A stretch of DNA of 64,000 bases, taken from assembly GCF_001701025.1 (NCBI RefSeq), contig NZ_CP016793.1, forward strand, positions 3,224,001-3,288,000, given 5' to 3'. Position numbers and translations under genes: made by a program. Shown in pieces: positions 42,119 to 55,904 of the stretch. The notes under the pieces are model-generated. The model searched no databases. It saw nothing but the letters and a program-made list of their open reading frames with translations, and was not told the origin of the DNA. The DNA comes from Lentzea guizhouensis. GTDB lineage: Bacteria; Actinomycetota; Actinomycetes; Mycobacteriales; Pseudonocardiaceae. Position 1 is the first letter of the stretch. Every line of letters starts with the position of its first letter.

Positions 42119-42154
42119 GTGGGCCGCCAGGGACTCGAACCCTGAACCCGAAGA
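42119..42154. repeat. attL: 36-bp tRNA-Lys 3' fragment
   Basis: Identical over 36 bases to 55831-55866. It contains the T-arm (GGGACTCGAACCCTGA on this strand) and the acceptor end, but no 5' half, so it is not a tRNA. The flanking base after the discriminator is CGG, not CCA, showing that the pre-insertion host gene did not encode CCA. Similarity continues imperfectly to 42161. Confidence 0.92.
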
Positions 42155-42268
42155 GTAAGAGCACTCGCTTGGCGTTGTTCGCCGATCTTCCTCGACAGTG
42201 CTCACTACCTGCGCGGATGCCGTCTTGATCTGAGCACTGTGGACAGTCGCTTCTCGACGTCTGTCGTC

Positions 42269-42291
42269 GTTTTGTGAGGGTTAAGTGTGGG
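42269..42291. repeat. Left copy of 23-bp terminal repeat, probable integrase arm site
   Basis: GTTTTGTGAGGGTTAAGTGTGGG; the right copy at 55761-55783 differs in one base (22/23). The two lie inside the element near each att site in the same orientation, as arm-type binding sites of tyrosine integrases do. Confidence 0.7.
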
Positions 42292-43005
42292 TTGATCTTT
42301 GTCTCTTGGACCCGCCCATACCCATGCCACCATCCCGACACTGAGCCTCGAACACGGCCGGTGGCGCTTGTTCCAGCTTTGGCGCGGCGCTGCCGGCCAT
42401 TGCCGTGTGGGCGATGCTGTAGCTGAGTGAGGTGCCGGGTTCCAGCGGCGACTATTCAGGGCACCGAACGTGTGCCACGCGTGCGGGTATCAACCTGCCG
42501 CCTCTTACTACCGCTGGTTTGGCCATAGCCTCGGGTGCCCCGGCGACACCTGTTGAGTCGATGGTCAGAGGCTGCCAGCTACGGGCCTCTTCGAGCAACT
42601 GGCTTCCGCGGGGCTGAGACGCCAGGAGCTGCGGGCCACATGGTTCGGTGGCAAGGCGGCGCAGCCGTCGCGGCAGTCGAGCGCCGTGCACAGCCGCCTG
42701 TGGTGACCGCGCTGGCGCTCGTCGGGAGTCGGGACGAATCGGGGCTCGGATCGTGTAAGCCGTCAGCTGGCGACCGAGGTCCGGCGCGCAGCGCCGCCCG
42801 GCCGACCGGCGGAGCGAAGCGGATGCCGGGAGTGCCGGGATGGATGTTGGCGCAGCGCCAGACCGCACGCGCCGCCAGCGGCGGCGCCTTGATCCTGTAG
42901 AGCCGAGTTCGGCAAGTGAGCTTGCGTCGCTCGCACAACTGGGGACGGACCTCCGAGCATGCGTACTAGGTGCGTGGCAGTGTTGCTAACGACGTGGCCT
43001 GGCTA

Positions 43006-43023
43006 GTCGACAGTAGTGTCGAC
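43006..43023. other. Stem-loop 1 upstream of RT gene
   Basis: GTCGACA-GTAG-TGTCGAC, perfect 7-bp stem with a 4-base loop, about 145 bases before the RT start. Either a regulator site or part of a structured RNA. Confidence 0.4.
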
Positions 43024-43097
43024 AGGGTCTTGCCGTAAGCGCTTCGTGGCTATGCTCAACGACCGTGAGAGTGAGGCAACGGATGTATGGATTCGTC

Positions 43098-43114
43098 CTC
43101 ACCTGCGAGGTGAG
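43098..43114. other. Stem-loop 2 upstream of RT gene
   Basis: CTCACCT-GCG-AGGTGAG, perfect 7-bp stem with a 3-base loop, 54 bases before the RT start. With stem-loop 1 it marks the segment most likely to be transcribed as leader or ncRNA. Confidence 0.4.
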
Positions 43115-43168
43115 AGCAACACCAGTTGCAGATATGTTCACTAGGGCTAAGCATGCCGGGAGTGACTC

Positions 43169-44857
43169 TTGAGGACCCTGTCCGTCCCGCAGTGCGCGCT
43201 ACTTTTGGGCGTGTCGTCGGCGAGAGTGCGGCACTGGTGTGAATCGGAAGTGATTCCTGCTGTCAAGTTTGGCGATGATTGGGTAATTCAAGACGAGCGC
43301 ATTGAACAATTTGGCAGAATCGAGAACCTGGAAACATTCGATCAGGATCTGCCGCTGAATTTCTCAAAAGCGCTATCGCAAATGGCTTCGCTGGACTTTA
43401 CGGAAGAGTGGATACCGGACATCCTGAGGCATGAAGACCTCTTGATGGAGCGCGAACGCCTTCTTTCTCGTGTTGAGGATCGGTACAGCCTAGGTATCAC
43501 AAACGCTGCCACTGACGTAGAGATTCCGAAAACTTCTTTCTTTGCTAGGGCAGGGCAGCTGCTGAGCCTACACGATCGGATCGCTTATCATGCGACCGTA
43601 GAGACTTTCGCTCAACGTATCGACACCTATCTTCCCGGTGTGGTTTTTTCTGCTCGTCTGGCACCGGAAGGATCCCGCAGGCTTCTTCATAATGGAGTAA
43701 AGCAGTGGCGGCGCTGGACACGATATGTGCGGGAGTCGGTAAAGGCGGAAAACCCCTGGCTGATGAAGACGGATCTTGCGGCGTATTTCGACTGTATTCG
43801 TCACGATATTTTGCTGCGAGAGCTGGGTACGCTAGGGGTTTCTAAAGAGACCCTAGAAAAGCTTGCCGGCCTGCTTCAAGCTTGGAGCCACTCCCCTGGT
43901 CAGGGGATACCTCAGGGGCCCGATGTGTCGAGGTTGCTTGGAAATTTCTATCTATCGTCGATCGACAAGATGATGTTGAATGAAGGATTCAAATACTCGC
44001 GATACATGGATGACATACGCATTGTAGGATCGACCAAATCCGAAGTCGTCCATGCAATCCGACGGTTTGGTCTGGAATGTCGTAAGCGCGGATTGATTGT
44101 CAGTGCATCAAAGACAAAAATTCTTCATGGCAAGGAAGCAAGGGAAGTTGACCTAGACGCTGCGCGCGACCTGGCGCAGTATTACATGGATGCGAGAAAG
44201 GCGGCGCAGGCAAAAAAGATTCTGCGCGAGATACTAGGCGACGCACTGAAGGATGATCATGAGATCGGAGTGCGCGCGGTACGCTTTAGCTTGAGAAGAT
44301 TGGGGCAGCTCAGAGAGGAAGACGTATGTAAGCAAGTGCTGGACAGACTGGATGACTTGGCTCCCGTAGCGCCAGTCGTGGGTGACTTCTTGGGTGCATA
44401 TATAAGCCGTCCGTTTGTCCAGGACGCTTTGAGTGCGTACTTGGTGGATGAGTCCCAGGTTCAAGACGACTACTTGGTGGCGTTTTTGTATGCGGCAATG
44501 CTGGAGCACCCCGGCTTGCTTCCGAAGGCTTGGGCCGACCACGCGCGCAAAACGATGCAGGACAGAAACCTGCCCGACCATCTCAGGGTGATCGCGGCGA
44601 ATGTGGTAGCGCTTAAACGTGAAGCAGTTGACATCAGCTGGATTCAGAACCAGGCGCGACGTGAGGCGAGCGAAGGTCTGCTGCGCGGCTATGCTGTGGC
44701 GCTTAGGCGCGCTGGCACGTTGGACGCGACGATATCGACAGTTTTGTCGAGTCGTTCTGACGGGCTTGCTCGGACAATCCGGTATTTGCACTCGATAAGT
44801 AATCTTCCTTCGATCGTTCGAGGTTATACGAGAGTCGGAGCGCATGCGCAGTTATAG
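43169..44857 (+). CDS. Reverse transcriptase with N-terminal HTH and helical C-terminus (Abi/UG-like)
   Basis: 562 aa from TTG 43169 (GGGAG 6 bases upstream; an in-frame TGA just before rules out an earlier start). Residues 1-50 (LSVPQCALLLGVSSARVRHW...FGDDWVIQDERIEQF) look like an excisionase/MerR-type helix-turn-helix. RT core about 125-330: motif A KTDLAAYFDCI, motif B GIPQGPDVSRLLGNF, catalytic YMDD at 279-282, then GLIVSASKTKIL. Residues 330-562 are all-helical repeats, as in AbiK/AbiA and other defence RTs. No maturase or endonuclease domain, so not a group II intron. Codon use and GC are foreign to the host. Confidence 0.85.
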   Translation: MRTLSVPQCALLLGVSSARVRHWCESEVIPAVKFGDDWVIQDERIEQFGRIENLETFDQDLPLNFSKALSQMASLDFTEEWIPDILRHEDLLMERERLLSRVEDRYSLGITNAATDVEIPKTSFFARAGQLLSLHDRIAYHATVETFAQRIDTYLPGVVFSARLAPEGSRRLLHNGVKQWRRWTRYVRESVKAENPWLMKTDLAAYFDCIRHDILLRELGTLGVSKETLEKLAGLLQAWSHSPGQGIPQGPDVSRLLGNFYLSSIDKMMLNEGFKYSRYMDDIRIVGSTKSEVVHAIRRFGLECRKRGLIVSASKTKILHGKEAREVDLDAARDLAQYYMDARKAAQAKKILREILGDALKDDHEIGVRAVRFSLRRLGQLREEDVCKQVLDRLDDLAPVAPVVGDFLGAYISRPFVQDALSAYLVDESQVQDDYLVAFLYAAMLEHPGLLPKAWADHARKTMQDRNLPDHLRVIAANVVALKREAVDISWIQNQARREASEGLLRGYAVALRRAGTLDATISTVLSSRSDGLARTIRYLHSISNLPSIVRGYTRVGAHAQL

Positions 44858-45697
44858 AAACCACTGTGCGGTAGGAGCGATGGTAAGAGCATGGGCTTCG
44901 CCGGAGACGGCGCCGCGGCGCTTGATCCGTTCCGCGTCTACGCAAATGAACTTGCTATCCTGATTCTCACCGAGCTTCATAATCTCTGCACGCTGCGCGT
45001 CGGTGCAAACTATATCGAAAATATCAGCGATGATCAGCTCGTAAGCTTGCGCATGCTCGCTAAATCGAATTTTATTTACGTGTTGCTTCACGTAATCGAA
45101 GCGCACGTCCAAAAAATCTTGGGCCTTAAGTGGCCCCTCGGAGAGCAGTTCCTCGCTGAACTCTCTAAATGCACCTACTTCGCGATTTTTTCCACTCTTG
45201 AACCAGTTCAGGAAGGTTAGAAGGTTCTTTCCGGGAACCCTGATTCGCAGGTCGTCTGAGCTGACTGAATCGATCGGAATGAGGCTGTCTGCGCGTACGC
45301 TCAGCTTGTTGAGATTATCCATTGCGCTCTTGTTGAACTTGTAGACTCCGCCAACTGGCTGATATTGGTCAGGGTATCGCTTCCCTTGGATTAGTAGGTA
45401 CTTTCCTTGTTGCTCGATGCGGATGAGGTATGACAGCGACACGCGTACTTCTTGCTTGCGTAGCCTGAAGCAATCGTATAGAAGTCGAAAGTTGTATGGA
45501 TGGTTGGCAATCATGTCGATCAAGGGTATAAGCAGTGCTGTTGCGATTCCGGTAAATAGACCCACCTTGATGGGCTCGCGCACCCAGATGAGAGCGACCG
45601 CCGAAGCTATGGCGAGGATTAGATAAGCTGCGATTCTCACGATCCATATTTTCTGTGTAGTTGAATATAGCGGATGACGCTGATTGTAATTCAACAA
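44852..45697 (-). CDS. Two-TM protein with degenerate NUDIX domain (SMODS-associated NUDIX-like)
   Basis: 281 aa from TTG 45697 (start uncertain, no clear SD). Two N-terminal helices (IAAYLILAIASAVALIWV and VGLFTGIATALLIPLIDMIA), then a domain starting SYLIRIEQQGKYLLIQGKRY, QPVGGVYKF, and a Nudix-box-like REFSEELLSEG with part of the GX5EX7REUXEEXGU pattern lost. This architecture matches the TM plus Sa_NUDIX effectors described in nucleotide-signalling defence (CBASS-type) loci, but no cyclase is here. Its stop TAA is the complement of the last RT codon: the two genes meet tail to tail with 6 bases shared. Confidence 0.7.
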   Translation of the reverse strand: MLNYNQRHPLYSTTQKIWIVRIAAYLILAIASAVALIWVREPIKVGLFTGIATALLIPLIDMIANHPYNFRLLYDCFRLRKQEVRVSLSYLIRIEQQGKYLLIQGKRYPDQYQPVGGVYKFNKSAMDNLNKLSVRADSLIPIDSVSSDDLRIRVPGKNLLTFLNWFKSGKNREVGAFREFSEELLSEGPLKAQDFLDVRFDYVKQHVNKIRFSEHAQAYELIIADIFDIVCTDAQRAEIMKLGENQDSKFICVDAERIKRRGAVSGEAHALTIAPTAQWFL

Positions 45698-46049
45698 TAA
45701 GGGCAGCTGGGTCTAAGTGGTCTTTGATCCTTGTGTTCGGTAGTTAATGCATGGCGTGGGCATTCGAGTCCTCAATGCTTCGAATTTTCATGGCGGAAAG
45801 TGATGCATTTGGCGCTTGGTGTCGTGACGGGTCAGTGCGACTTCTGATGGCTGCACCGGCAAGGCGAACAGGTCGCAAGCGATCAGCATGTGCCTCCTGT
45901 CTTCCGGCTCGTAGTTGAGGAGCGACAGACTAGACGCGAGGCGGTCGTTGTGGCCTCGTTTAGGTCGAACCGAGCCCAGGGAGCCGTCGTGGCGACACGC
46001 GGGACGCACCCACTTCCCGGTCGGCATGCTGACCGGTATATTTTCGGCC
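45698..46049. other. Intergenic region in cargo, no confident gene
   Basis: 352 bases between the TM-NUDIX and the XRE-ImmA operon. A minus-strand frame of 87 codons (46051 to 45788, beginning MAENIPVSMPTGKWVRP) is open and overlaps the divergent start at 46050, but has no Shine-Dalgarno and no family I recognise. It probably contains divergent promoters. AT-rich segment near 45740-45760. Confidence 0.3.
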
Positions 46050-46673
46050 ATGAAGTCGCATCCGTCAGCGGAGGACGTAGTCGGGGACCTGGGGGACAAG
46101 GTCGCCGAGGGGTTCGCGCGTGGAGTGGCGCTAACCCGAGATGATCTGGCGGAGTACCGTCGTCTGGCGCCGGGCTTTGCGGGTCAGGCGAGTGAGCGTG
46201 GCCTCGCCAACTGGATCCATGATCGACTTTGGTACAACCTCGGTGTCTACCTCGACGGGCTCGACGAGGTGCACTTCCATGATCAAGAGCCGCATCGCGA
46301 ACTTCGCATCGGACTGCGCTACCGCTTCCGGGTGAAGCGTCACACTGAGACAGGTGGTGTGAGTACCTACCCGACGCAGACTGCAATGGACTTCCTTCAG
46401 CAAGTCCCGGTGCAGGAGCCGTTTGATGGGTTCGACGAGATCTGTCTCATCGTCGGGTACGTCTGGGACTCCGAAGCTCGTAGCATTGGCCCTGCGGTGA
46501 TCTCGCTTCGTGAAGATCGTGACAAGGTCATCTGGGTGCACGAACTGCCTGAGCCTCCTCAGACTGGAGCGCTGCCGGTCAGTCCGCTGCCGCCTCAGAT
46601 CGACCCCAAGCCGCCTGTCGTGGCTGTCGAGTCCGACGATGCGAACGAGGAAGCTGGGAATGAAGGAGCATGA
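46050..46673 (+). CDS. Unknown protein paired with XRE-ImmA/IrrE regulator
   Basis: 207 aa from ATG 46050 (MKSHPSAEDVVGDLGDKVAE). Predicted alpha/beta core with HFHDQEPHRELRIGLRYRFRVKRH and FDEICLIVGYVWD, then an extended Pro-rich acidic tail (PPQTGALPVSPLPPQIDPKPP). ATGA overlap with the next gene shows co-translation. No known family assigned. By analogy with two-gene toxin-antitoxin-like pairs, it may be the partner whose level or cleavage the ImmA protein controls. Confidence 0.65.
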   Translation: MKSHPSAEDVVGDLGDKVAEGFARGVALTRDDLAEYRRLAPGFAGQASERGLANWIHDRLWYNLGVYLDGLDEVHFHDQEPHRELRIGLRYRFRVKRHTETGGVSTYPTQTAMDFLQQVPVQEPFDGFDEICLIVGYVWDSEARSIGPAVISLREDRDKVIWVHELPEPPQTGALPVSPLPPQIDPKPPVVAVESDDANEEAGNEGA

Positions 46674-47713
46674 GGGACTTTGGCGAGGTGCTCTCTACGG
46701 CACGTCGTGCGAGCGGCTTGACGCAAGAGGAACTGGCGGAGCTGGCGGAGGTCACGCAGGCGACACTGTCACGGTATGAAAATGATCAACGTGCGCCTGA
46801 TGATGATGTGTTGGAGCGGCTGGCGCGCGCACTTGGCGTGACTGCGGACCTCTTCCGCGCTGCTGGTCGTGTGCACGGTGGCCTGGCCGTAGATGCCCAC
46901 ATGCGACGACGTCAGTCAGCCAAGCCGACTGTTTGGCGTCAGCTTGAGGCACAGTTGAACATGTATCGACTTCATGCGCGACTGGTCTGTGAAGAGGTCT
47001 CAATCCGTGCTGAGCAAAGTATTCCGCGGTTGGACCTGTTCGAGACCACGCCGGAAGCTGCGGCCCGGATTGTCCGGATGCAGTGGCGCATGCCGGTTGG
47101 GCCTGTTCGCGGTCTCGTTCGTTGGATGGAGGCAGCCGGCTGCATCATCATCGAAGAAGACTTCGGGACAGCTCGTGTGGATGGCTTGTCTCAGTGGATA
47201 GATGACTATCCGGTCGTCATGATCAACATGCGAGCGCCAACGGATCGCAAGCGACTGACGCTAGCGCACGAGCTGGGACACCTCGTTCTTCACTCCGAGG
47301 ACGTGTCGGCGGAGATCGAAGATGAGGCGAACCGCTTCGCTGGCGAGTTCCTGATGCCGACGGAGATGGTGCGACCGCAGATGAGGACTCTGAACCTTGG
47401 GCGCTTGCACGATCTGAAGCGCGAGTGGGGTACCTCGATGCAAGCCCTCATCGAACGAGCTAACCACTTGAATCTGATCACGGCGTCGCAGCGGACGAAT
47501 CTCTATAAGTCCCTGAGCGCCAAAGGTTGGCGTACCAGTGAGCCGCTCAGCGACGAGCTCCTTCCCGAGGTGCCGTCACTTACGCGCGCTATCGGAGACG
47601 CAATGGCTTCGAAGGGTTTCAGTGCTGCCGAGATCGATCGGATTGCGGGGTTCGATCCAGCTGTGACCGATCATCCGTTCAGGCCTCAGCGCACACGGTT
47701 GCAGTTGGTTTGA
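46670..47713 (+). CDS. XRE-family HTH with ImmA/IrrE metallopeptidase domain
   Basis: 347 aa. N-terminal Cro/CI helix-turn-helix (LSTARRASGLTQEELAELAE...LSRYENDQRAPDDDVLERLA), then an ImmA/IrrE domain with zinc motif HELGH (LTLAHELGHLVLHSE) and downstream EIEDEANRFAGEFLMP, whose Glu is the third ligand. In ICEBs1, ImmA cleaves the repressor ImmR to trigger excision; fused versions are stress or TA-like regulators. Here it may regulate the AICE or be standalone cargo. Codon GC lower than host. Confidence 0.85.
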   Translation: MRDFGEVLSTARRASGLTQEELAELAEVTQATLSRYENDQRAPDDDVLERLARALGVTADLFRAAGRVHGGLAVDAHMRRRQSAKPTVWRQLEAQLNMYRLHARLVCEEVSIRAEQSIPRLDLFETTPEAAARIVRMQWRMPVGPVRGLVRWMEAAGCIIIEEDFGTARVDGLSQWIDDYPVVMINMRAPTDRKRLTLAHELGHLVLHSEDVSAEIEDEANRFAGEFLMPTEMVRPQMRTLNLGRLHDLKREWGTSMQALIERANHLNLITASQRTNLYKSLSAKGWRTSEPLSDELLPEVPSLTRAIGDAMASKGFSAAEIDRIAGFDPAVTDHPFRPQRTRLQLV

Positions 47714-47775
47714 GTGACCTCGGGGCAGTAGTACGTGAGACTGCTGCCCCTTGAAGTTCTGCGTAGGGTTGCACC

Positions 47776-48342
47776 GTGGATCTCGTTTCCTGGGCTACTC
47801 ATGCGGTCGATGATGCGCTGGCAGAGTCGCTGCCTCGCAGGTTTGCTCACGTCCTAGGCGTAGGCGCCAGAGCGCAGCTCGCGGCACCGCTGTTTGATTC
47901 GCAGGACCAGGACGTACTGGTGGCAGCTGCGCTGCTCCATGACATCGGTTACGCGCCACATCTAGCGCACACTGGGTTTCATCCGTTGGACGGTGCGCAG
48001 TTCCTGACGGGGTCGTCTGTGGACGTTCGACTGTGTGCGCTAGTGGCACATCACTCATGCGCATATCTGGAAGCGGAGCTGAGAGGGTTGTCGGCTCAGC
48101 TTGCAAAGTGGGTCGACGAGTGTACGGCGCTCCGTGATGCCCTCTGGTGGGCTGATATGACCACAACGCCTGATGGTGAGCCCACGAACGTGCTCGATCG
48201 AATCGGCGAGATCGAGAAGCGCTACGGTCCGGAGGATCTGGTGACCTTCTTCATCCGGCAGGCCAAGCCCGAGTTGGTTGGCGCGGTCGAGCGCACGGAG
48301 GAACGGCTGCGCGCTGCGGGAGTTGACTACACCGCGAAGTAG
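47776..48342 (+). CDS. HD-domain phosphohydrolase
   Basis: 188 aa from GTG 47776. HD metal site: RFAHVLGVGARAQ (H), AALLHDIGYAP (HD), and LVAHHSC/ WVDECTALRDALWWADMTT (later D). Probable nucleotide phosphohydrolase or phosphodiesterase. Similar proteins accompany HTH regulators in actinomycete mobile elements. Unrelated in codon use to the RT locus (higher GC). Confidence 0.8.
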   Translation: MDLVSWATHAVDDALAESLPRRFAHVLGVGARAQLAAPLFDSQDQDVLVAAALLHDIGYAPHLAHTGFHPLDGAQFLTGSSVDVRLCALVAHHSCAYLEAELRGLSAQLAKWVDECTALRDALWWADMTTTPDGEPTNVLDRIGEIEKRYGPEDLVTFFIRQAKPELVGAVERTEERLRAAGVDYTAK

Positions 48343-48800
48343 GGCGTCGTTCGATCCTCGAACCCGTGCTCGATCCGAAGCCGGATGGACGGGTGGATGT
48401 TGAGTGCGTCGAGGTCTCCGCGGCTGACCCAGTGAACTTCGCTGGACTCGTCGCTGGTACGCAGCTCGCCACCGACCAGCCGTGCCCGGAAGCAGATGGA
48501 GAACTGCTGCCGCACCTCGCCGTCCGTGTACGCGATGACATGCGCGGGGTCTGAGTACACGCCGATGATGCCGACGGGCTCGACGTCGACCCCGGTCTCT
48601 TCCTTGACCTCGCGGATGACGGTGTGGCCGATGGTCTCACCGACATCCTGTGCCCCGCCGGGGATCGAGTACAGGTCGTTGTCGGTCCGCCGGATCATCA
48701 ACAGCCGGCCTTGCTCGTCCTGCACGAACGCCGTCACCGCCACGACGATGTTGGTCGCCTTCGGGGCGTTCGGGTCGTTGTAGTGATCAATGCGAGCCAT
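48327..48800 (-). CDS. Nudix hydrolase, possible AICE immunity factor (Pif-like)
   Basis: 157 aa from ATG 48800. Full Nudix box GGAQDVGETIGHTVIREVKEE then TGV, fitting GX5EX7REUXEEXGU. pSAM2 encodes Pif, a Nudix protein that blocks redundant transfer between donors; position next to the regulator suggests an analogue, though sequence alone cannot prove it. It overlaps tail-to-tail with the HD gene by 16 bases and follows the DUF5919 gene on the same strand after a 10-base gap. Confidence 0.85.
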   Translation of the reverse strand: MARIDHYNDPNAPKATNIVVAVTAFVQDEQGRLLMIRRTDNDLYSIPGGAQDVGETIGHTVIREVKEETGVDVEPVGIIGVYSDPAHVIAYTDGEVRQQFSICFRARLVGGELRTSDESSEVHWVSRGDLDALNIHPSIRLRIEHGFEDRTTPYFAV

Positions 48801-48810
48801 GCCTACCTGC

Positions 48811-49554
48811 CTACCACTTCGGCGGCTTCGCGCCATCCCAGACGCCCTGGAAGCTCTCGGCGTACGTCTCGAAGAGGTCGCCTCCGGACAACCGCCGCAG
48901 GTGCAGGACCGGCGCGTGAGCTGCCATGAAGCCGTGCAGGTGCGTGTTCACGAGCATCTCGTCGTCGAAGCGGTAGATCGAGTTGTAGAGCGTCGTGCCG
49001 TGAAGTCGGATCTCCACACCAGGCACCTCGGCCAGCGGCTTGTAGATGGCCAGAGCGTTCCGGATCTTCGCGCCAAGCGTGGTCTTGCCGATGCCCTCTT
49101 CCTCGCTGCGGCGTGCGACCTCGCGGCTTGCCGGGTCTCCGAGCAGCAACCGGATCCGAACGCCGTTCTCTGCCTTCTGGCGCAGCGTCTTGATCAGGGC
49201 TGGATTGTCCACGAGGAACATGCCGGCGTAGACCAGGATCGAGATGCTGATCTTCGACTGCTCGATCAGGTGTCCCCAGATGTCCTGCGGCACGGCGTGG
49301 CGGTGCGCGTAGACCTGGACGACCTCGGACTCGTTGATCTCTTTCTTCTTCTCCGGCGCGACCGCGTCCGGCCAGAGGTAGGTCTCCGTCTCGCGAACCA
49401 TCGCCGCGATGGCGTGCCGGTGGCGCGGGTACGGCGTCCGATCCTGCGTGATCCACCGTTCGACGGTCTTCGGGTCCACGCCGGTTGCCTTGGCGACTTC
49501 ATCGAAGCCCAAAGTGTTGCGTAGCAACGCATCCCGCAAGCGTTGGTTCGGCAT
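48811..49554 (-). CDS. HTH plus DUF5919 (PLD-like) regulator
   Basis: 247 aa. Helix-turn-helix (LGFDEVAKATGVDPKTVERWITQDRTPYPRHRHAIAAM split as usual) followed by a domain with a phospholipase-D-like fold feel (ISILVYAGMFLVDNPALIKTLRQKAENGVRIRLLLGDP) that NCBI names DUF5919. Recurrent in Streptomyces and Amycolatopsis AICEs next to a Nudix gene, on the strand opposite the transfer genes. Likely controls element maintenance. Confidence 0.82.
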   Translation of the reverse strand: MPNQRLRDALLRNTLGFDEVAKATGVDPKTVERWITQDRTPYPRHRHAIAAMVRETETYLWPDAVAPEKKKEINESEVVQVYAHRHAVPQDIWGHLIEQSKISISILVYAGMFLVDNPALIKTLRQKAENGVRIRLLLGDPASREVARRSEEEGIGKTTLGAKIRNALAIYKPLAEVPGVEIRLHGTTLYNSIYRFDDEMLVNTHLHGFMAAHAPVLHLRRLSGGDLFETYAESFQGVWDGAKPPKW

Positions 49555-49712
49555 GATCTACCCTCCGTACAACTAGGGACGACTTCAATGTAGCCGAGAC
49601 GTCTGTAGTTGTCCTGATGTGTGGTGTTGACGTCCTGCCGATTCGTCGAAAGTCGTAGGTGTCGAAACGTCGGGGACCAGCCTCGACCGGCACGAACGAC
49701 AGGAGAACGACG

Positions 49713-50168
49713 ATGGCGATCACAGGTGGGAGCAGGCTCCCGGCGGGTCACGACTTCGTGTTCCCGAGGGGCGCGCTCGTGATGAGCGTTGAGCCGGTGC
49801 TCAAGTTCCAGTCGGCGGAGGACCGCGCCAAGGGGCTCCCCGCCGAGCAGGAAGTCGACAAGGACAACGGGCAGCTCGTGTGGTCTGTCCTCGTCATCGA
49901 CCAGGCGGCGGAGCGCAAGACGGATGCGGCGGTCACGGTCAAGATCTCCGCACCTCACCGGCCCGTCCCGCCTGAGGCGATCCCCGGTACGGACATCCGG
50001 CCCGCCGTGTTCGAAGGGCTGACTGTCACGCCGTGGATCGATGACAAGGGCTGCCGTGGTGGCCACGTCGGTGAGCGTCACCGCTGCCGGGCGAAGCTGG
50101 GCTACAGCCTGCGCGCCACGGGCATGAAGGCGGCCGTCGCGGCCAAGCCCGCACCCAAGGCGGCGTGA
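49713..50168 (+). CDS. AICE conserved hypothetical protein
   Basis: 151 aa from ATG 49713 with AGGAGAAC. Starts MAITGGSRLPAGHDFVFP and contains GQLVWSVLVIDQAAERKTDAAVTVKISAPHRP. Recurs as the first gene of the transfer region in AICEs, in my recollection; function unknown. Ala/Lys-rich tail. Heads an operon of seven genes through int. Confidence 0.75.
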   Translation: MAITGGSRLPAGHDFVFPRGALVMSVEPVLKFQSAEDRAKGLPAEQEVDKDNGQLVWSVLVIDQAAERKTDAAVTVKISAPHRPVPPEAIPGTDIRPAVFEGLTVTPWIDDKGCRGGHVGERHRCRAKLGYSLRATGMKAAVAAKPAPKAA

Positions 50169-50171
50169 TCC

Positions 50172-50372
50172 GTGGCCGACTTGATGCGCCTGCACCTGAC
50201 GGCGAACCTGCCGATTCGGGTGGAACCGCTTGTCTTCGCTGGACGGGTTGAGTTCCGGTTGGGCAACGCGTTTCCGGCCGTCCTGGTGGTCGACGCGGAG
50301 GCACTGCCTCGCCTTGCTGAGGCTGTCGCTGAGGGACAGACCGCTCTCGATGCGGCGCGGGGTGGTCAATGA
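50172..50372 (+). CDS. Small AICE protein
   Basis: 66 aa from GTG 50172, 3 bases after the preceding stop. Sequence MRLHLTANLPIRVEPLVFAG then RVEFRLGNAFPAVLVVDAEA suggests a small beta-rich fold with a helical C-terminus. No family recognised. Overlaps the next gene (ATGATG). Confidence 0.65.
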   Translation: MADLMRLHLTANLPIRVEPLVFAGRVEFRLGNAFPAVLVVDAEALPRLAEAVAEGQTALDAARGGQ

Positions 50373-50632
50373 TGGGGTTCAACGCCACCTGTACGCCCGG
50401 CCAAGACGCGGGCGCGGCCATGATCCGGGTGACGCCCGATGTTCCGGCGCTGGCTATCTACCTCGACCCGGTCAACATCGCGATCCAGCTCCCGCCCTTC
50501 CCTGGTGGTTCGGACGTGCTGATGCGGTTCTGTCGGGAGTTGTCGCGGGAGGCGGCCAAGCTGGCTGACCACCTGGGCAACCAGGAGGGGCGTCACGCGC
50601 TCGCGGAGGAGGCTCCTGATGTCCGCGGTTAA
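50369..50632 (+). CDS. Small AICE protein
   Basis: 87 aa from ATG 50369. IRVTPDVPALAIYLDPVNIA then a helical FCRELSREAAKLADHLGNQEG. No family recognised; coupled on both sides by overlaps, which supports a coding role. Confidence 0.65.
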   Translation: MMGFNATCTPGQDAGAAMIRVTPDVPALAIYLDPVNIAIQLPPFPGGSDVLMRFCRELSREAAKLADHLGNQEGRHALAEEAPDVRG

Positions 50633-50879
50633 CGCCATGCACTGGGGCCTGGCGGAACAGGCTCGGACGCTGAGCGAGGCGCACGACGTCTTGAGCAAGC
50701 TCCTGCCCAAACCGAAGTCCGCACCCGAGGTGCTGAGGGACTACTACCTCCGCTCGGCCGCCATCTACGCACGCGTCGCTGAGACCGATCGCAGCCACCA
50801 CCACGAAGCCATGTACTGGGCGAACCGTGAGCGCGAGAAGGGAGAGGCGATCAAGGTCACCAAGACGGCGAAGAAGTAA
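50619..50879 (+). CDS. AMED_5909 family protein
   Basis: 86 aa from ATG 50619 (MSAVNAMHWGLAEQARTLSE). Helical and basic at the end (REREKGEAIKVTKTAKK). Resembles proteins annotated AMED_5909 family in Amycolatopsis mobile elements; that naming is from memory. Function unknown. Confidence 0.65.
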   Translation: MSAVNAMHWGLAEQARTLSEAHDVLSKLLPKPKSAPEVLRDYYLRSAAIYARVAETDRSHHHEAMYWANREREKGEAIKVTKTAKK

Positions 50880-50967
50880 GCAGAAGTCCTTATTGGACAA
50901 AGCGCGTGACTCTGCTGGGTCACGTGGCGATGCCGCACGTCTTGTTGCGGTGCAAAGAGAACGTGAG

Positions 50968-51010
50968 ACGCAGGAGCGGAAACCGGCTACCAACCTTGCC
51001 GCTCCTGCGT
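50968..51010. other. 12-bp perfect hairpin inside the transfer operon
   Basis: ACGCAGGAGCGG (50968-50979) and CCGCTCCTGCGT (50999-51010) with a 19-base loop, in the 158-base gap before the zinc-ribbon gene. No T tract follows. Could be a partial terminator setting transfer-gene dosage, an RNA-stability element, or the double-strand transfer/replication locus. Confidence 0.6.
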
Positions 51011-51037
51011 TGTCCACCCAACTCGGGAGTGAACAAG

Positions 51038-51301
51038 ATGAGCGTAGAGCCTGAGCGCATTCGTGCGCTAGACGGGGATCAAGTGATCTCCACCAGGCAG
51101 ACCGTTTCCACCTACGCCGTGATGCTCGACGGCGGCTCGCTGGAGACGATGGAACTCACGGCGGCACAGGCTCGGGGCTTCGAATGCCTGACCTGTCGGG
51201 CGCAGCACACCGCCGCTTCGGGAGCGTTCCAGCCTGTTGGGCGCATCCCGAGTGTGGGCAGCGTCTTCCAGTGCCTCAAGTGCGCTGGCGGTGTGCGATG
51301 A
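51038..51301 (+). CDS. Small zinc-ribbon protein of the AICE
   Basis: 87 aa from ATG 51038 (MSVEPERIRALDGDQVISTR), with GGGAG 9 bases upstream; upstream frame to 50906 lies in the hairpin region. Two C-x2-C pairs (FECLTCRAQ and FQCLKCAGG) about 32 residues apart should bind zinc. Overlaps the TraB start (ATGA). Probably assists transfer or replication. Confidence 0.7.
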   Translation: MSVEPERIRALDGDQVISTRQTVSTYAVMLDGGSLETMELTAAQARGFECLTCRAQHTAASGAFQPVGRIPSVGSVFQCLKCAGGVR

Positions 51302-52761
51302 AGGGCAATCCATGGGTGGACCCCGCACCGTTTGAAGGTGCGCGTCCACGGGTCCCGTGGTGGGTGTGGCTTCCTGGCTGGATCAAGCTTCTGCTCGCGC
51401 CGGTCGCGCTGATCTGGCTCGCCGGCCGACTGGCCGTGAAGCTCGTCCTGGTGACGGGCCGGTACCCGGTCGCGGTCACGGCCTGTCTCGGCGGCTACAT
51501 CGGCTATCGCCAGTTCGGGCTGTCGCCGCTGGTCCTGGCGCTGCTGTCGCTCGTGTGTGCCTTGACGGTCTGGTACGGCCTCGATCGCGGCTCGTTCCTG
51601 CGGTTCGGCTGGTACCGCGTCCTGACCGAGTGGCGGCGGCTCACGGTCTATGTGCCGCACTGGCGCACGGTGATGCGGCTGGCTGAGCTGGCCAAGGACA
51701 GTCGAGGCAGGGAGTACCGGCCGAAGCTGCGGCGTGTCCGGTCGGAGGGGTGGCGGGACAAGGTCCGGGTTCGCATGATCCCGGCTCAGTCTCCGGAGCA
51801 GTGGGAAGCGCGACGGGACAACCTGGCGCACTCCTTCAACGCACGGTCTTGTCGGGTGCGGGTGCTGCGGCCGAGCGTGCTTGAGCTCGACTTCATCCAC
51901 TCCGATCCGCTGTCTCGTCCGGTCGCGGTGCCGCAACTCGCAGCCGTCGGGGACGTCGACCTCAAGCGCGTCGTCGTGGGCCGTACCGAGACCGGTAAGC
52001 CCTGGCGGTTGCGGCTGCTCGGCTCTCAGGTGCTCGTGGTCGGCGTGCCTGGTGCGGGCAAGGGCTCGGTGCTCTGGTCGATCGTCTGGCAGCTTGCCCC
52101 GGCCATCAAGGCTGGCATGGTCCGGCTCGTTGGAATCGACCCCAAGGGTGGCATGGAACTGGGGCAGTGTCCGGACGCGTTCGAGAAGGTGATCTACGAC
52201 AACGGGCCGGAAGCCGTTGCCCTGCTTGAAGAAATCGCCGCAGAGGTCAAGGAACGTGCGGCGCGGTACCGGGGCATCCGGCGCTTGTGGGCACGCGGCA
52301 CAGGTGAGCCGTTCACGGTCCTGATCGTGGATGAGCTAGCGGACCTGATCGCGTACCAGCCCGACCGGAACCTCCGCGAACGCGCTACGCGTGCCGTCCA
52401 GACGATCACCTCGCAGGGACGTGCTCCTGGCTACGCCGTGGTCGGCCTGGTCCAGGACCCGCGCAAGGAGGTCGTCTCCTTCCGGCACCTGTTCACCACC
52501 CGAGTTGCCCTGCGGCTCGATGAGCCGGTTCAGGTCGACATGGTGCTTGGGGATGGCGTTCGGCAACGGGGCGCGGCTGCTCACGAGATCAGCGAGAACA
52601 CGCCCGGTGTTGCCTGGCTCAAGGAGGACGGGCAGCGCGAACCGGAACGCGCGAGGGCCTTCCACGTCACGGACGCGGACCTGGTCGAGCTGGGCGTCTA
52701 TCTCGCCCCGGCCACCGTGCACGAGTTCCCAACCAGCGGTGAAGGGAGGGCGGCGGCGTGA
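51298..52761 (+). CDS. traB: FtsK/SpoIIIE-type DNA translocase (TraB of AICE)
   Basis: 487 aa. N-terminal membrane segments (WLPGWIKLLLAPVALIWLAG, YPVAVTACLGGYIGY, LSPLVLALLSLVCALTVWYG), then an FtsK motor domain with Walker A GVPGAGKGS and Walker B VLIVDELADL, plus sensor-like ITSQGRAPGYAVVGLVQDP. AICE translocases form hexameric pores that move double-stranded plasmid DNA between hyphae. GTGA overlap with the Rep gene. Confidence 0.93.
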   Translation: MKGNPWVDPAPFEGARPRVPWWVWLPGWIKLLLAPVALIWLAGRLAVKLVLVTGRYPVAVTACLGGYIGYRQFGLSPLVLALLSLVCALTVWYGLDRGSFLRFGWYRVLTEWRRLTVYVPHWRTVMRLAELAKDSRGREYRPKLRRVRSEGWRDKVRVRMIPAQSPEQWEARRDNLAHSFNARSCRVRVLRPSVLELDFIHSDPLSRPVAVPQLAAVGDVDLKRVVVGRTETGKPWRLRLLGSQVLVVGVPGAGKGSVLWSIVWQLAPAIKAGMVRLVGIDPKGGMELGQCPDAFEKVIYDNGPEAVALLEEIAAEVKERAARYRGIRRLWARGTGEPFTVLIVDELADLIAYQPDRNLRERATRAVQTITSQGRAPGYAVVGLVQDPRKEVVSFRHLFTTRVALRLDEPVQVDMVLGDGVRQRGAAAHEISENTPGVAWLKEDGQREPERARAFHVTDADLVELGVYLAPATVHEFPTSGEGRAAA

Positions 52762-54362
52762 CCGAGTACCTGACTCGCTCAGAGCGGATGAAGCAGCCGG
52801 CCGCGCTCGACATCGCTCGGGCCGTCGCTGAGGAGCACGGCGTCTGCGTCCGGCCGTTGGCCAAGGAACGGATCGACCTCGACACCGGACGTGTCGACAT
52901 CGTGCCGGTGCCATGCGGTTCGACCGTGGCCAGCGTGTGTCCCACCTGCGCGGAGAAGAATCGGCGTCTGCGGATGGCGCAGTGTCGTGAGGGATGGCAC
53001 CTGACCGAAGAGCCCGACTTCACGCCGAACGCCCCTAGCGACGATCAGCGGGAGCTGACCGCCTACCGGGCTGACCTCGTAAAAGCCTTCCGCCTAGCCC
53101 TCGATGAGGGTGATGAGGTCGGAGCCGAAGAGGTCCGGGAAGAGGTCGCAGAGGTCGATGCCGAACTTCGGCAACTCGGAGTCCGCGGTTCACTCCCCTC
53201 CCTGGAAGTGCCGCTCAAAGGTGTGAGGAAGCGGTCGACCAGGCGGCGACAGGACGCGCCCAACCTGCCTCGGCGGCCGGTCAGCAAGCGCACGGTCGGG
53301 AAGGTGTTCGGGGGCAAGTATCAGCCCTCGACGTTCCTCACACTGACGCTCGACACCTACGGAAAGGTCCGCAGCGACGGCACCCCCGTTGACCCGGCGA
53401 CCTACAACTACCGCCGCGCCGCTCGGGACGCGGTGCACTTCGCCGCGCTGCTCGATCGGTTCGTCCAGAACCTGCGCAGGTGCGTCGGCTGGGAGGTCCA
53501 GTACTTCTCGACGGTCGAGCCACAGCGGCGGTTGGCTCCGCACTGGCACGCGGCAGTTCGGGGATCGATCTCGCGGGCAGAGCTGCGGGCGGTTGCTGAG
53601 GCCACGTATCACCAGGTCTGGTGGCCTGAGCATGACGAGATCAAGTACGGCGGCGACAACCTGCCGGTCTGGGATGTCCGGGCCAAGGGCTTCGTTGATC
53701 CGCAGACGCGGAAGGCCCTGCCTACCTGGGAAGACGCGCTCGACCAGGTGGTGCGGCCCGCACATGTCGCACGGTTCGGGGTGCAGGTGCACTCCAAGGG
53801 CATCCTCGGCGGGACTGAAGAAGCCGGCCGCCACATCGGCTACCTGACGAAGTACCTCACCAAGAGCATCAACGAGTGCTTCGAGGCCCAGACGGCCCGC
53901 CAGGAAGACCACGCCGAACGGCTCTGCGCTGAGCTCGCGGTCACGCCCTGCTCGCCGCAATGCCCGGTCTGGTTGCTCTACGGCGTCCAGCCTCGCGGGG
54001 CTCGGCTGTCCACGGTGCCGGGCAAGTGCAAGGGGAAAGCGCACAAGCGGACCACGCTTGGGGTGGCTGGTCGTCGGGTGCTCGTGTCGCGGAAGTGGTC
54101 CGGGAAGTCGCTCGCCGACCACAAGCACGACCGGAAGACATTCGTTCGGCAACTGCTCGCGGAGGTCGGGATCAAGCCCGAGGACCAGCCTCAACGGGTC
54201 GTCTGGAACAACGTCGAGCCCGGCGACCCGAACGTGCCGCCTCGAGCCCATCTGCTCTTGAGTGCCGTCGCTGAGCGGCGGAGGTGGAAGGCCGAATACA
54301 CGGCCGCGCTGCTCGCATCTGCCGGACCTCCGGGGAGTTCGGCAACTCCGCACGCTGCTTGA
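52758..54362 (+). CDS. repSA: Rolling-circle replication initiator (RepSA family)
   Basis: 534 aa from GTG 52758. N-terminal CPTC zinc motif (VASVCPTCAEKNRRLRMA), HUH motif HWH in RRLAPHWHAAVRGSIS, and a downstream Tyr-bearing helix GRHIGYLTKYLTKSINE typical of RepSA relaxases; further Cys/His residues (CSPQCPVWLLYG). Nicks the element's dso to start replication after excision. Confidence 0.92.
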   Translation: MTEYLTRSERMKQPAALDIARAVAEEHGVCVRPLAKERIDLDTGRVDIVPVPCGSTVASVCPTCAEKNRRLRMAQCREGWHLTEEPDFTPNAPSDDQRELTAYRADLVKAFRLALDEGDEVGAEEVREEVAEVDAELRQLGVRGSLPSLEVPLKGVRKRSTRRRQDAPNLPRRPVSKRTVGKVFGGKYQPSTFLTLTLDTYGKVRSDGTPVDPATYNYRRAARDAVHFAALLDRFVQNLRRCVGWEVQYFSTVEPQRRLAPHWHAAVRGSISRAELRAVAEATYHQVWWPEHDEIKYGGDNLPVWDVRAKGFVDPQTRKALPTWEDALDQVVRPAHVARFGVQVHSKGILGGTEEAGRHIGYLTKYLTKSINECFEAQTARQEDHAERLCAELAVTPCSPQCPVWLLYGVQPRGARLSTVPGKCKGKAHKRTTLGVAGRRVLVSRKWSGKSLADHKHDRKTFVRQLLAEVGIKPEDQPQRVVWNNVEPGDPNVPPRAHLLLSAVAERRRWKAEYTAALLASAGPPGSSATPHAA

Positions 54363-54378
54363 TCAAAGGGGGAACATC

Positions 54379-54573
54379 ATGGAGACACACCAGTTCGAGC
54401 CACTGTGGACAGTCAGCGATGTTGCTGCCTACCTGAACGTTCCGGTCCACACGCTCTACGGCTGGAGGACCAAGAACTACGGCCCGCCTGCACGGCGCTT
54501 GGGGAAGCACCTGCGGTACCTGCCGTCCGAGGTGCGGAGCTGGTTCGAGCACCTGCTTGAGGAGGCGGCCTGA
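54379..54573 (+). CDS. xis: Excisionase (Xis), helix-turn-helix
   Basis: 64 aa from ATG 54379 (AAAGGGGGAAC upstream). Winged-HTH of the HTH_17 type: WTVSDVAAYLNVPVHTLYGW, RRLGKHLRYLPSEVRSWF. Directs integrase to excise. Its stop overlaps the integrase start (TGATG). It resembles the N-terminal 50 residues of the RT in the same element. Confidence 0.92.
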   Translation: METHQFEPLWTVSDVAAYLNVPVHTLYGWRTKNYGPPARRLGKHLRYLPSEVRSWFEHLLEEAA

Positions 54574-55754
54574 TGGGACGTCCACCTCTGGACCTCGGCA
54601 CGTACGGCGCGATTCGTTGCTACGAAACGGATTCCGGCTGGCGTGCCACCACGAAGTATCGCGACTACGACGGCAAGACGCGGCCGGTCGAGCGGTGGGG
54701 GAAGACCAAGAGTGCTGCGGAGCGGAGCCTCAAGAAGGCGCTCGCTGAGCGGAAGGGGCCGTCCGGCAGTTCGCTGACGCGCGAGAGCCGGTTCAAGGAG
54801 GCCTTGGACCAGTGGTTCACGAAGTTCCAGGCGCTCGCTGACGCTGGGAAGAGGTCTCCGAGCAGCGTCGACACCTACCGGAGCATCATGGATCGCCACG
54901 TGCTCCCTGGCCTCGGTGAGCTGCGGATTCATGAGATGACGGTGGCGCGGGTCGACGCGTTCCTTGGCGCGTTGTGGCGGTCGGTCAGCGTGGACACGGC
55001 AAAGACGGCCCGGTCGGTGATCTCGGGCGCCTTGCGGATCGCCGTCCGGGACAAGGCGCTGGACACCAACCCGGTCAGGGATGCGGAGCCGCTGGAGGCC
55101 GGCCGCAAGAAGAGTCCGCGGGCGCTCACGCTGGAGGAACGGGTCCGCTGGCTGGAGATGCTGGAGTCGGACCCCAGAGCTGTGAAGCGGGACCTGCCTG
55201 ACCTGTCGCGCTTCATGATGGCCACGGGCGTTCGCATCGGTGAGGCGCTGGCCGTCTACTGGGAGGACGTCGACTTCGAGGCTGGCACGGTCGCCGTGAA
55301 CTACACGGTCATCCGGGTCAAGGACATCGGCTTGATCCGGAAGTCGACCAAGACGGAGGCCGGTGAGCGAACGCTCCTGCTCCCACGATGGGCGCTCGAC
55401 ATGCTCCAAAGGAGGCGCAAGACCACCAGCTTCCCGAACGGGCCGATCTTCCCGGATGCCCTCGGCGGGCTCCGCGACCCGTCCAACACCCGGAAGGACC
55501 TCCGGAAGGCGCGCGGAGGGGACGAGTTCGCCTGGGTGACCTCGCACGTCTTCCGGAAGACGGCGGCGACCATCCTCGATGAGGCAGGGCTGTCCGCACG
55601 GCAGGTCGCGGACCAGCTCGGCCATGCTCGGCCGTCCATGACGCAGGACACCTACATGGGTCGGAAGCTGGTCGACCGGCGGGCCGCTGCCGCCCTGGAG
55701 AACGCGCTCGGAGCGCCAAAAGATGATCAAGCGGAAGACGACGAAGTTGAATGA
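54573..55754 (+). CDS. int: Tyrosine site-specific integrase
   Basis: 393 aa. SAM-like core-binding domain (ALDQWFTKFQALADAGKRSPSS) and catalytic domain with R in ATGVRIGEALAVYW, beta-hairpin K in STKTEAGERTLLLP, HxxR as HVFRKTAATIL, H in QLGHARPSM and nucleophile Tyr in TQDTYMG. Integrates the element into the tRNA-Lys 3' end; the gene ends 76 bases before attR, as is usual. Confidence 0.95.
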   Translation: MGRPPLDLGTYGAIRCYETDSGWRATTKYRDYDGKTRPVERWGKTKSAAERSLKKALAERKGPSGSSLTRESRFKEALDQWFTKFQALADAGKRSPSSVDTYRSIMDRHVLPGLGELRIHEMTVARVDAFLGALWRSVSVDTAKTARSVISGALRIAVRDKALDTNPVRDAEPLEAGRKKSPRALTLEERVRWLEMLESDPRAVKRDLPDLSRFMMATGVRIGEALAVYWEDVDFEAGTVAVNYTVIRVKDIGLIRKSTKTEAGERTLLLPRWALDMLQRRRKTTSFPNGPIFPDALGGLRDPSNTRKDLRKARGGDEFAWVTSHVFRKTAATILDEAGLSARQVADQLGHARPSMTQDTYMGRKLVDRRAAAALENALGAPKDDQAEDDEVE

Positions 55755-55760
55755 CCAGCG

Positions 55761-55783
55761 GTTTTGTGTGGGTTAAGTGTGGG
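55761..55783. repeat. Right copy of 23-bp terminal repeat
   Basis: GTTTTGTGTGGGTTAAGTGTGGG, one mismatch to 42269-42291. It lies between the integrase stop and attR, 47 bases from the att core, in the position of an integrase arm site. Confidence 0.7.
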
Positions 55784-55800
55784 GAGACCCGGACAAAGCG

Positions 55801-55829
55801 AAACCCCCAGGTCACTGACCTGGGGGTTT
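55801..55829. terminator. Bidirectional terminator between integrase and tRNA-Lys
   Basis: Perfect palindrome: AAACCCCCAGGTCA, one central base, TGACCTGGGGGTTT. T-tails on both sides (GGTTT and, on the other strand, GGTTT) suit termination of int (plus) and tRNA-Lys (minus). It belongs to the element, so integration replaced the original tRNA terminator. Confidence 0.8.
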
Positions 55830-55904
55830 GGTGGGCCGCCAGGGACTCGAACCCTGAACCCGAAGATTAAAAGTCTCCTGCTCTGCCAATTGAGCTAGCA
55901 GCCC
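55829..55904 (-). tRNA. tRNA-Lys (anticodon TTT)
   Basis: 76 nt including an encoded CCA (55831-55829). Acceptor stem GGGCTGC pairs with GCGGCCC (one G-T), D-loop AGCTCAATTGGCAGAGC, anticodon loop CTTTTAA with TTT, T-arm GGGTTCGAGTCCC. Integration target of the AICE: the 3' 36 bases are the att core. Confidence 0.95.
55831..55866. repeat. attR: 36-bp core within tRNA-Lys
   Basis: Identical to 42119-42154. It restores the tRNA's T-arm and acceptor 3' side from element DNA. The next bases outside the repeat towards the gene (TTAAAAGT) form the anticodon loop and belong to the host. Confidence 0.92.

Follow-up and report, generated by a model that had tools for sequence, protein, structure and literature searches.

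The chromosome of Lentzea guizhouensis carries, within the 64,000-nucleotide stretch analyzed here (hereafter, the window), a reverse transcriptase (RT) gene that ends against the gene of a membrane-anchored NUDIX protein on the opposite strand. What are these two proteins, and do they work together? A first-pass annotation, made from the sequence alone, had proposed a new defense system. Our study very probably identifies the locus as a UG32 RT with a Cap16-like partner, carried on an actinomycete integrative and conjugative element (AICE). Novelty was dropped because PADLOC-DB already holds both proteins, as RT_UG32 and RTasNUDIX, an outcome that the annotation had itself listed as refuting; each is the best match of its model, and no difference from this catalogued group of defense-associated RTs (DRTs) was shown. 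The convergent layout and a candidate operator are the additions of our analysis to the catalogued pair.

The UG32 reverse transcriptase and its Cap16-like partner

The RT gene occupies positions 43169-44857 of the forward strand, where a 562-residue RT had been announced, and matches the PADLOC profile RT_UG32 with 747 bits, the next best profile being UG23 with 215 bits (RVT_1, 63 bits). It starts with TTG, one codon after an in-frame TGA, and the model of the protein has a mean pLDDT of 93. The excisionase/MerR-like helix-turn-helix (HTH) first proposed for the N-terminus was recovered as a winged HTH at residues 1-48 (43169-43312), a candidate binder of the RT's own promoter: HTH_17 matches residues 4-47 with 24.7 bits when the whole protein is searched, below the Pfam cut-off of 27, and with 27.4 bits when only the N-terminal 53 residues are searched, while the AlphaFold2 model, less confident here than over the remainder of the RT, shows a pair of helices and a beta hairpin. 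Invariant columns and structural alignments place the fingers and palm at about residues 61-330 (43349-44158), with D202 and YMDD at 279-282; D202, D281 and D282 do not vary across the 54 rows of alignment A1, and the YMDD core and active site are intact, as first described. The C-terminus, expected to be helical as in Abi/UG enzymes, is helical in the model over residues 331-542 and forms, by the model and structural alignments, a helical-repeat domain of about residues 331-545 (44159-44803), as in Class 1 Abi/DRT enzymes.

Once the HTH is removed, the full length of the RT model can be aligned with DRT6, DRT4 and AbiK. The likeness to the Class 1 UG/Abi enzymes (DRT6, DRT4/UG15, AbiK, Abi-P2 and AbiA) covers the RT and the C-terminal alpha-helical repeat that characterizes the class, with about 390-450 alignable residues at 11-13% identity; the window RT differs from them in its N-terminal HTH, which lies outside the matches (the matched range of the model begins mostly at residue 51-66), and in its optional Cap16-like partner. 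Because the fold aligns with Class 1 enzymes, we infer that the RT would share their chemistry, DNA synthesis without a template; against this, its top single structural matches by Z are the RTs of diversity-generating retroelements and group II introns, over the RT domain. In Class 3 DRTs the RT is fused to a nitrilase or phosphohydrolase (PMC13275509), and a Pfam scan of the window RT gave no match to either above the cut-off.

The partner gene lies at 44852-45640 of the reverse strand and encodes 262 residues from a likely GTG start; its longest open reading frame (ORF) extends to a TTG at 45697 (44852-45697, 281 residues), and the GTG at 45640 is the likelier start, in line with relatives of 262-263 residues. 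Two hydrophobic helices, residues 11-38 and 42-64 of the 281-residue ORF (45506-45667, reverse strand), are predicted to span the membrane and are followed by an Sa_NUDIX domain at residues 83-280 (44858-45451, reverse strand; PF18167, 212 bits). Helices of this kind are predicted in all six NUDIX proteins examined. The two-helix protein read tail to tail with the RT thus proved correct, and so did its likeness to the membrane effectors of cyclic-nucleotide defense: the order of two transmembrane (TM) helices and Sa_NUDIX is that of Cap16 in the cyclic-oligonucleotide-based antiphage signaling system (CBASS), several named relatives are called "CD-NTase-associated protein 16 NUDIX domain" (that is, Cap16), and the CBASS 2TM effector models of PADLOC reach up to 223 bits. 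The difference lies in the arrangement. We inspected the neighborhoods of relatives in 5 of the 39 plasmid records that contain one, and in four of these five the relative and a CD-NTase or nucleotidyltransferase are clustered on one strand, whereas the window partner is convergent with an RT; a nucleotidyltransferase or DncV-like cyclase stands directly upstream in three, a CBASS cyclase encoded on the relative's strand lies three genes upstream in one, and no cyclase or nucleotidyltransferase was found among the annotated neighbors of the fifth. The partner is, judged from its sequence, a Cap16-type effector with predicted membrane toxicity upon ligand binding. Homology to a pore by fold was tried and dropped, since Foldseek returned Nudix hydrolases (best E 1.2e-3) and matched no CBASS effector. 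In viral contigs, 49 pattern matches for NUDIX included no relative of the partner.

The domain had also been called degenerate, which holds, by eye, for the GX5E half of the Nudix box and fails for the REFxEE part, as R178, E179, E182 and E183 are invariant in the 54 rows of alignment A2. This invariance among 54 relatives favors an alternative in which the NUDIX protein is an enzyme and not a pore, hydrolyzing a nucleotide, such as the dNTP that the RT uses or the ends of the RT product, and so restraining or tuning the RT. We consider it improbable given the altered GX5E half, the two membrane helices in every protein examined and the behavior of Cap16, which, according to a review (PMC10419184), oligomerizes and thereby damages the inner membrane, its NUDIX-domain mutants remaining toxic, so that toxicity is independent of the NUDIX site.

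Occurrence of the pair among UG32 loci

We counted 14 distinct UG32 loci: the window, ten from one genome-contig scan (L021-L030) and three from whole-genome searches (L089, L094 and L095), with L096 and L097 repeating L021. We left out of the UG32 count another 18 loci of the contig scan, whose identity of 26-33% extends over parts only. The other whole-genome sets, which overlap one another, gave no further match at UG32 level (396, 198, 245, 24 and 259 relatives, and a set of 60 relatives in which the own genome alone reached that level). Likewise, in 829 plasmid and 12 phage records nothing matched the RT over 80% of its length, and the 37 RT relatives in viral contigs are all weak (E 2e-8 or worse).

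The NUDIX gene is present in five of the 13 evaluable loci (the window, L021, L022, L094 and L095) and convergent with the RT in all five; the coding 3' ends overlap by 6 bp in the window (44852-44857), 6 bp in L021 and L022 and 4 bp in L095, and a 55-bp gap separates them in L094. Pairwise identities of RT and NUDIX proteins covary (15 pairs, r = 0.97), it being important to note that the pairs are not independent. In the RT tree, four of the five paired loci sit, together with P0001, on the branch of the window (7 rows, 98/96), and L094 pairs on another branch. P0001 and P0079, whose contigs are identical in length, would form a sixth pair. All four checkable loci of the window branch (the window, L021, L022 and L095) contain the pair; P0005 and P0007 were not checkable.

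Several points weigh against a joint function. First, the NUDIX gene is absent from the other eight evaluable loci (L023, L024, L025, L026, L028, L029, L030 and L089; the view of L024 extends just 0.8 kb past the RT, and L027 was not evaluable, its contig ending 14 bp after the RT), which is the outcome that the first-pass annotation had named as refuting its proposal; the RT must therefore be able to work alone. Second, a single functional unit seldom consists of convergent genes. Third, the host could drive the NUDIX protein from elsewhere: the sole SMODS match of its chromosome (10.0-Mb contig) is a CD-NTase at 6110912-6111376 (L105, L106; 149.6 bits). Finally, beside the loci that lack the effector, the main objection is that the anti-phage role of the pair is itself a prediction. 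The RT may accordingly be a stand-alone DRT and the NUDIX gene a separate CBASS-type or toxin-like gene travelling alongside, perhaps driven by this CD-NTase, with convergence precluding an operon. We regard this as somewhat unlikely, since RT and NUDIX diverge in step, the pair persists in five loci in a constant orientation, the RTasNUDIX model outscores the CBASS effector models on the partner (269 versus 223 bits), and the CD-NTase is about 2.8 Mb distant. No SMODS or cyclase domain was found among the element ORFs scanned, so a CD-NTase beside the effector, as in CBASS, is lacking; the earlier claim of no nucleotide cyclase stands for the element and not for the host. Because eight of 13 evaluable loci lack the NUDIX gene, the partner is optional, and we read the partnership, from sequence comparison, as old but optional.

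Other features were seen downstream of NUDIX-less UG32 RTs. An OLD-like ATPase, recognized by eye and possibly another partner, follows one of them by 58 bp on the same strand (L026:9745-11142). A 359-bp stretch, 74% identical, recurs at differing distances from the RT (L025:10506-10864 and L028:8847-9205), its L025 copy falling within a resolvase-like ORF (by eye).

A candidate operator before the RT start

When the 1.2 kb upstream of the RT was compared by blastn among the 14 loci, 19 matches were obtained: seven fall in a block that spans about -45 to the start codon, and 12 are stretches of 15-26 bp at unrelated offsets. The block holds TGAGCG half-sites: ten of the 14 loci have two or three within 60 bp ahead of the start, while elsewhere in the same loci at least two occur in 387 of 260032 60-bp windows. 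Together they form a 16-bp palindrome, TGAGCG-N4-CGCTCA, exact in six loci, with one mismatch in two and two mismatches in two; the other four loci have 4-6 mismatches. Of 26881 random windows, 120 have at most two mismatches. The palindrome starts 24-31 bases ahead of the RT start in eight of the ten loci (the start codon is uncertain for L023 and L024), and a TANNNT hexamer lies between the half-sites in L089, L094, L029 and L030 (by eye). In six whole genomes the exact palindrome occurs at eight sites, six of them by construction because the genomes were chosen for holding it, so that only two further sites occur in about 26.6 Mb, against three for a reversed-pattern control.

The ten RTs with the palindrome have an A-T-x-[KR]-R recognition helix, and the window RT (helix SARVRH), L021, L022 and L095 have neither (ten loci with both, four with neither; Fisher p = 0.001), although the link may reflect a single event because the four site-less loci form one branch of the tree (98/96). 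In alignment A1 this helix is present in 24 of 54 rows, with gaps there in eight. The palindrome is likely, from these sequence comparisons, the operator of the RT's own HTH in the relatives, where the HTH would most likely regulate its own transcription as a repressor. The window itself speaks against a simple transfer of this model: the TGAGCG operator was not found there (the best match in 80 bp has 5 mismatches) or in its three relatives, and self-regulation of the window RT is for this reason proposed by analogy. A weak candidate operator in the window is the inverted repeat CTCACCT-GCG-AGGTGAG upstream of the RT (43098-43114), equaled in 44 of 1000 dinucleotide shuffles; its single occurrence in the host genome carries little weight, the pattern having been derived from that very site. 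No sigma-70-like promoter was found, versus 1.9 expected. An operator on the NUDIX gene as well was considered and is unsupported, the only genome with both (G939) having a single exact site, at the RT.

The same flanks bear on whether a non-coding RNA serves the RT as template, as in Class 2 DRTs. No conserved RNA was seen in the flanks of the 14 loci, whose RTs are mostly 34-54% identical, and the sole Rfam match is the tRNA. At such divergence an RNA could have drifted too far to show in the flanks, but with no recurrent flank besides the operator block, no other Rfam match and a C-terminal repeat as in Class 1 enzymes, we think an RNA template very improbable.

Carrier element and proposed mechanism

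The conjugative element suspected at first was confirmed and delimited. An exact 36-bp copy of the 3' part of tRNA-Lys at 42119-42154 (36/36, blastn within the window) mirrors the repeat at 55831-55866 inside the tRNA-Lys gene (55829-55904, reverse strand), giving a 13.7-kb element (42119-55866) with the RT-NUDIX pair at its left end. At its right end, all on the forward strand, are a TraB/FtsK-type transfer ATPase (51184-52761; FtsK_SpoIIIE, 39 bits), a RepSA replication initiator (52758-54362; PF20199, 337 bits) and a tyrosine integrase (54573-55754; PF00589, 61 bits). By its sequence, this is a pSAM2-type AICE in tRNA-Lys, sharing with such elements the initiator, transfer ATPase, integrase and tRNA site and differing in a cargo of much lower GC content: 53.3% in the RT gene and 49.4% in the partner gene, against 65.0% in the rest of the element and 70.0% and 67.8% in the flanks, in agreement with the AT-rich DNA first noticed. 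A second near-exact repeat (22/23) at 42269-42291 and 55761-55783, near both ends, perhaps represents integrase arm-binding sites. Beyond the NUDIX gene, 46670-47713 encodes an XRE-HTH and IrrE/ImmA-type (M78) protein (PADLOC RmrA models, up to 207 bits), which an ORF beyond the NUDIX gene of L021 (10713-11888) resembles by eye. An HD-domain protein (47776-48342) and an HTH/PLD-like DUF5919 protein (48811-49554) lie between the pair and the transfer genes, and a canonical NUDIX hydrolase (48327-48836; PF00293, 68 bits) lies in the transfer part. The immunity function of pSAM2 includes a NUDIX protein, Pif.

Family membership, domains, pairing and the operator of the relatives were read from sequence, and from here on our account is inferential. 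The RT would oligomerize through its C-terminal helical repeat and synthesize DNA untemplated by RNA, as AbiK and DRT4 do, and its HTH would bind the RT's own promoter and keep expression low. Phage infection would change the RT or let its DNA product accumulate; the Cap16-like protein would sense this state or product instead of a cyclic nucleotide and would then oligomerize in the membrane, killing or arresting the cell. To this joint mechanism of untemplated synthesis, HTH self-regulation and an RT-triggered effector, with a predicted anti-phage role, we give an even chance. A bolder version, which we hold to be unlikely, makes UG32 RTs self-repressing immune polymerases: the HTH would sit on the palindromic operator and RT-made DNA would compete for it, so that catalysis would lift repression and commit the cell to the Cap16-like effector, DNA replacing the cyclic-nucleotide signal.

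An HTH beside such an RT has been listed previously: the Mycolicibacterium litorale copy (CP019882.1 4836808-4838490, our L025) is tabulated as UG23 with HTH_17 in PMC8934634. Many DRT groups have been catalogued, UG32 among them, and in the open-licence literature we found no description of its mechanism, a search that does not prove absence; neither the operator nor the Cap16 link was found described there, although the 2022 founding survey of UG/Abi RTs may hold part of this, and RTasNUDIX had no mention among the best 40 of 81 literature matches.

What the locus presents is an already catalogued RT adjoining, as judged from sequence, a type of membrane protein that elsewhere belongs to a different bacterial immune system. 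With an RT, and not a cyclase, in front of a Cap16-type effector, one can test whether the alarm signal of a CBASS-type membrane effector may be a DNA product. Judged from its relatives, the RT's HTH may control the RT's own gene, and the promoter palindrome of ten of the 14 loci offers a short, directly testable binding site and a first entry point into how RTs of this kind may be silenced.
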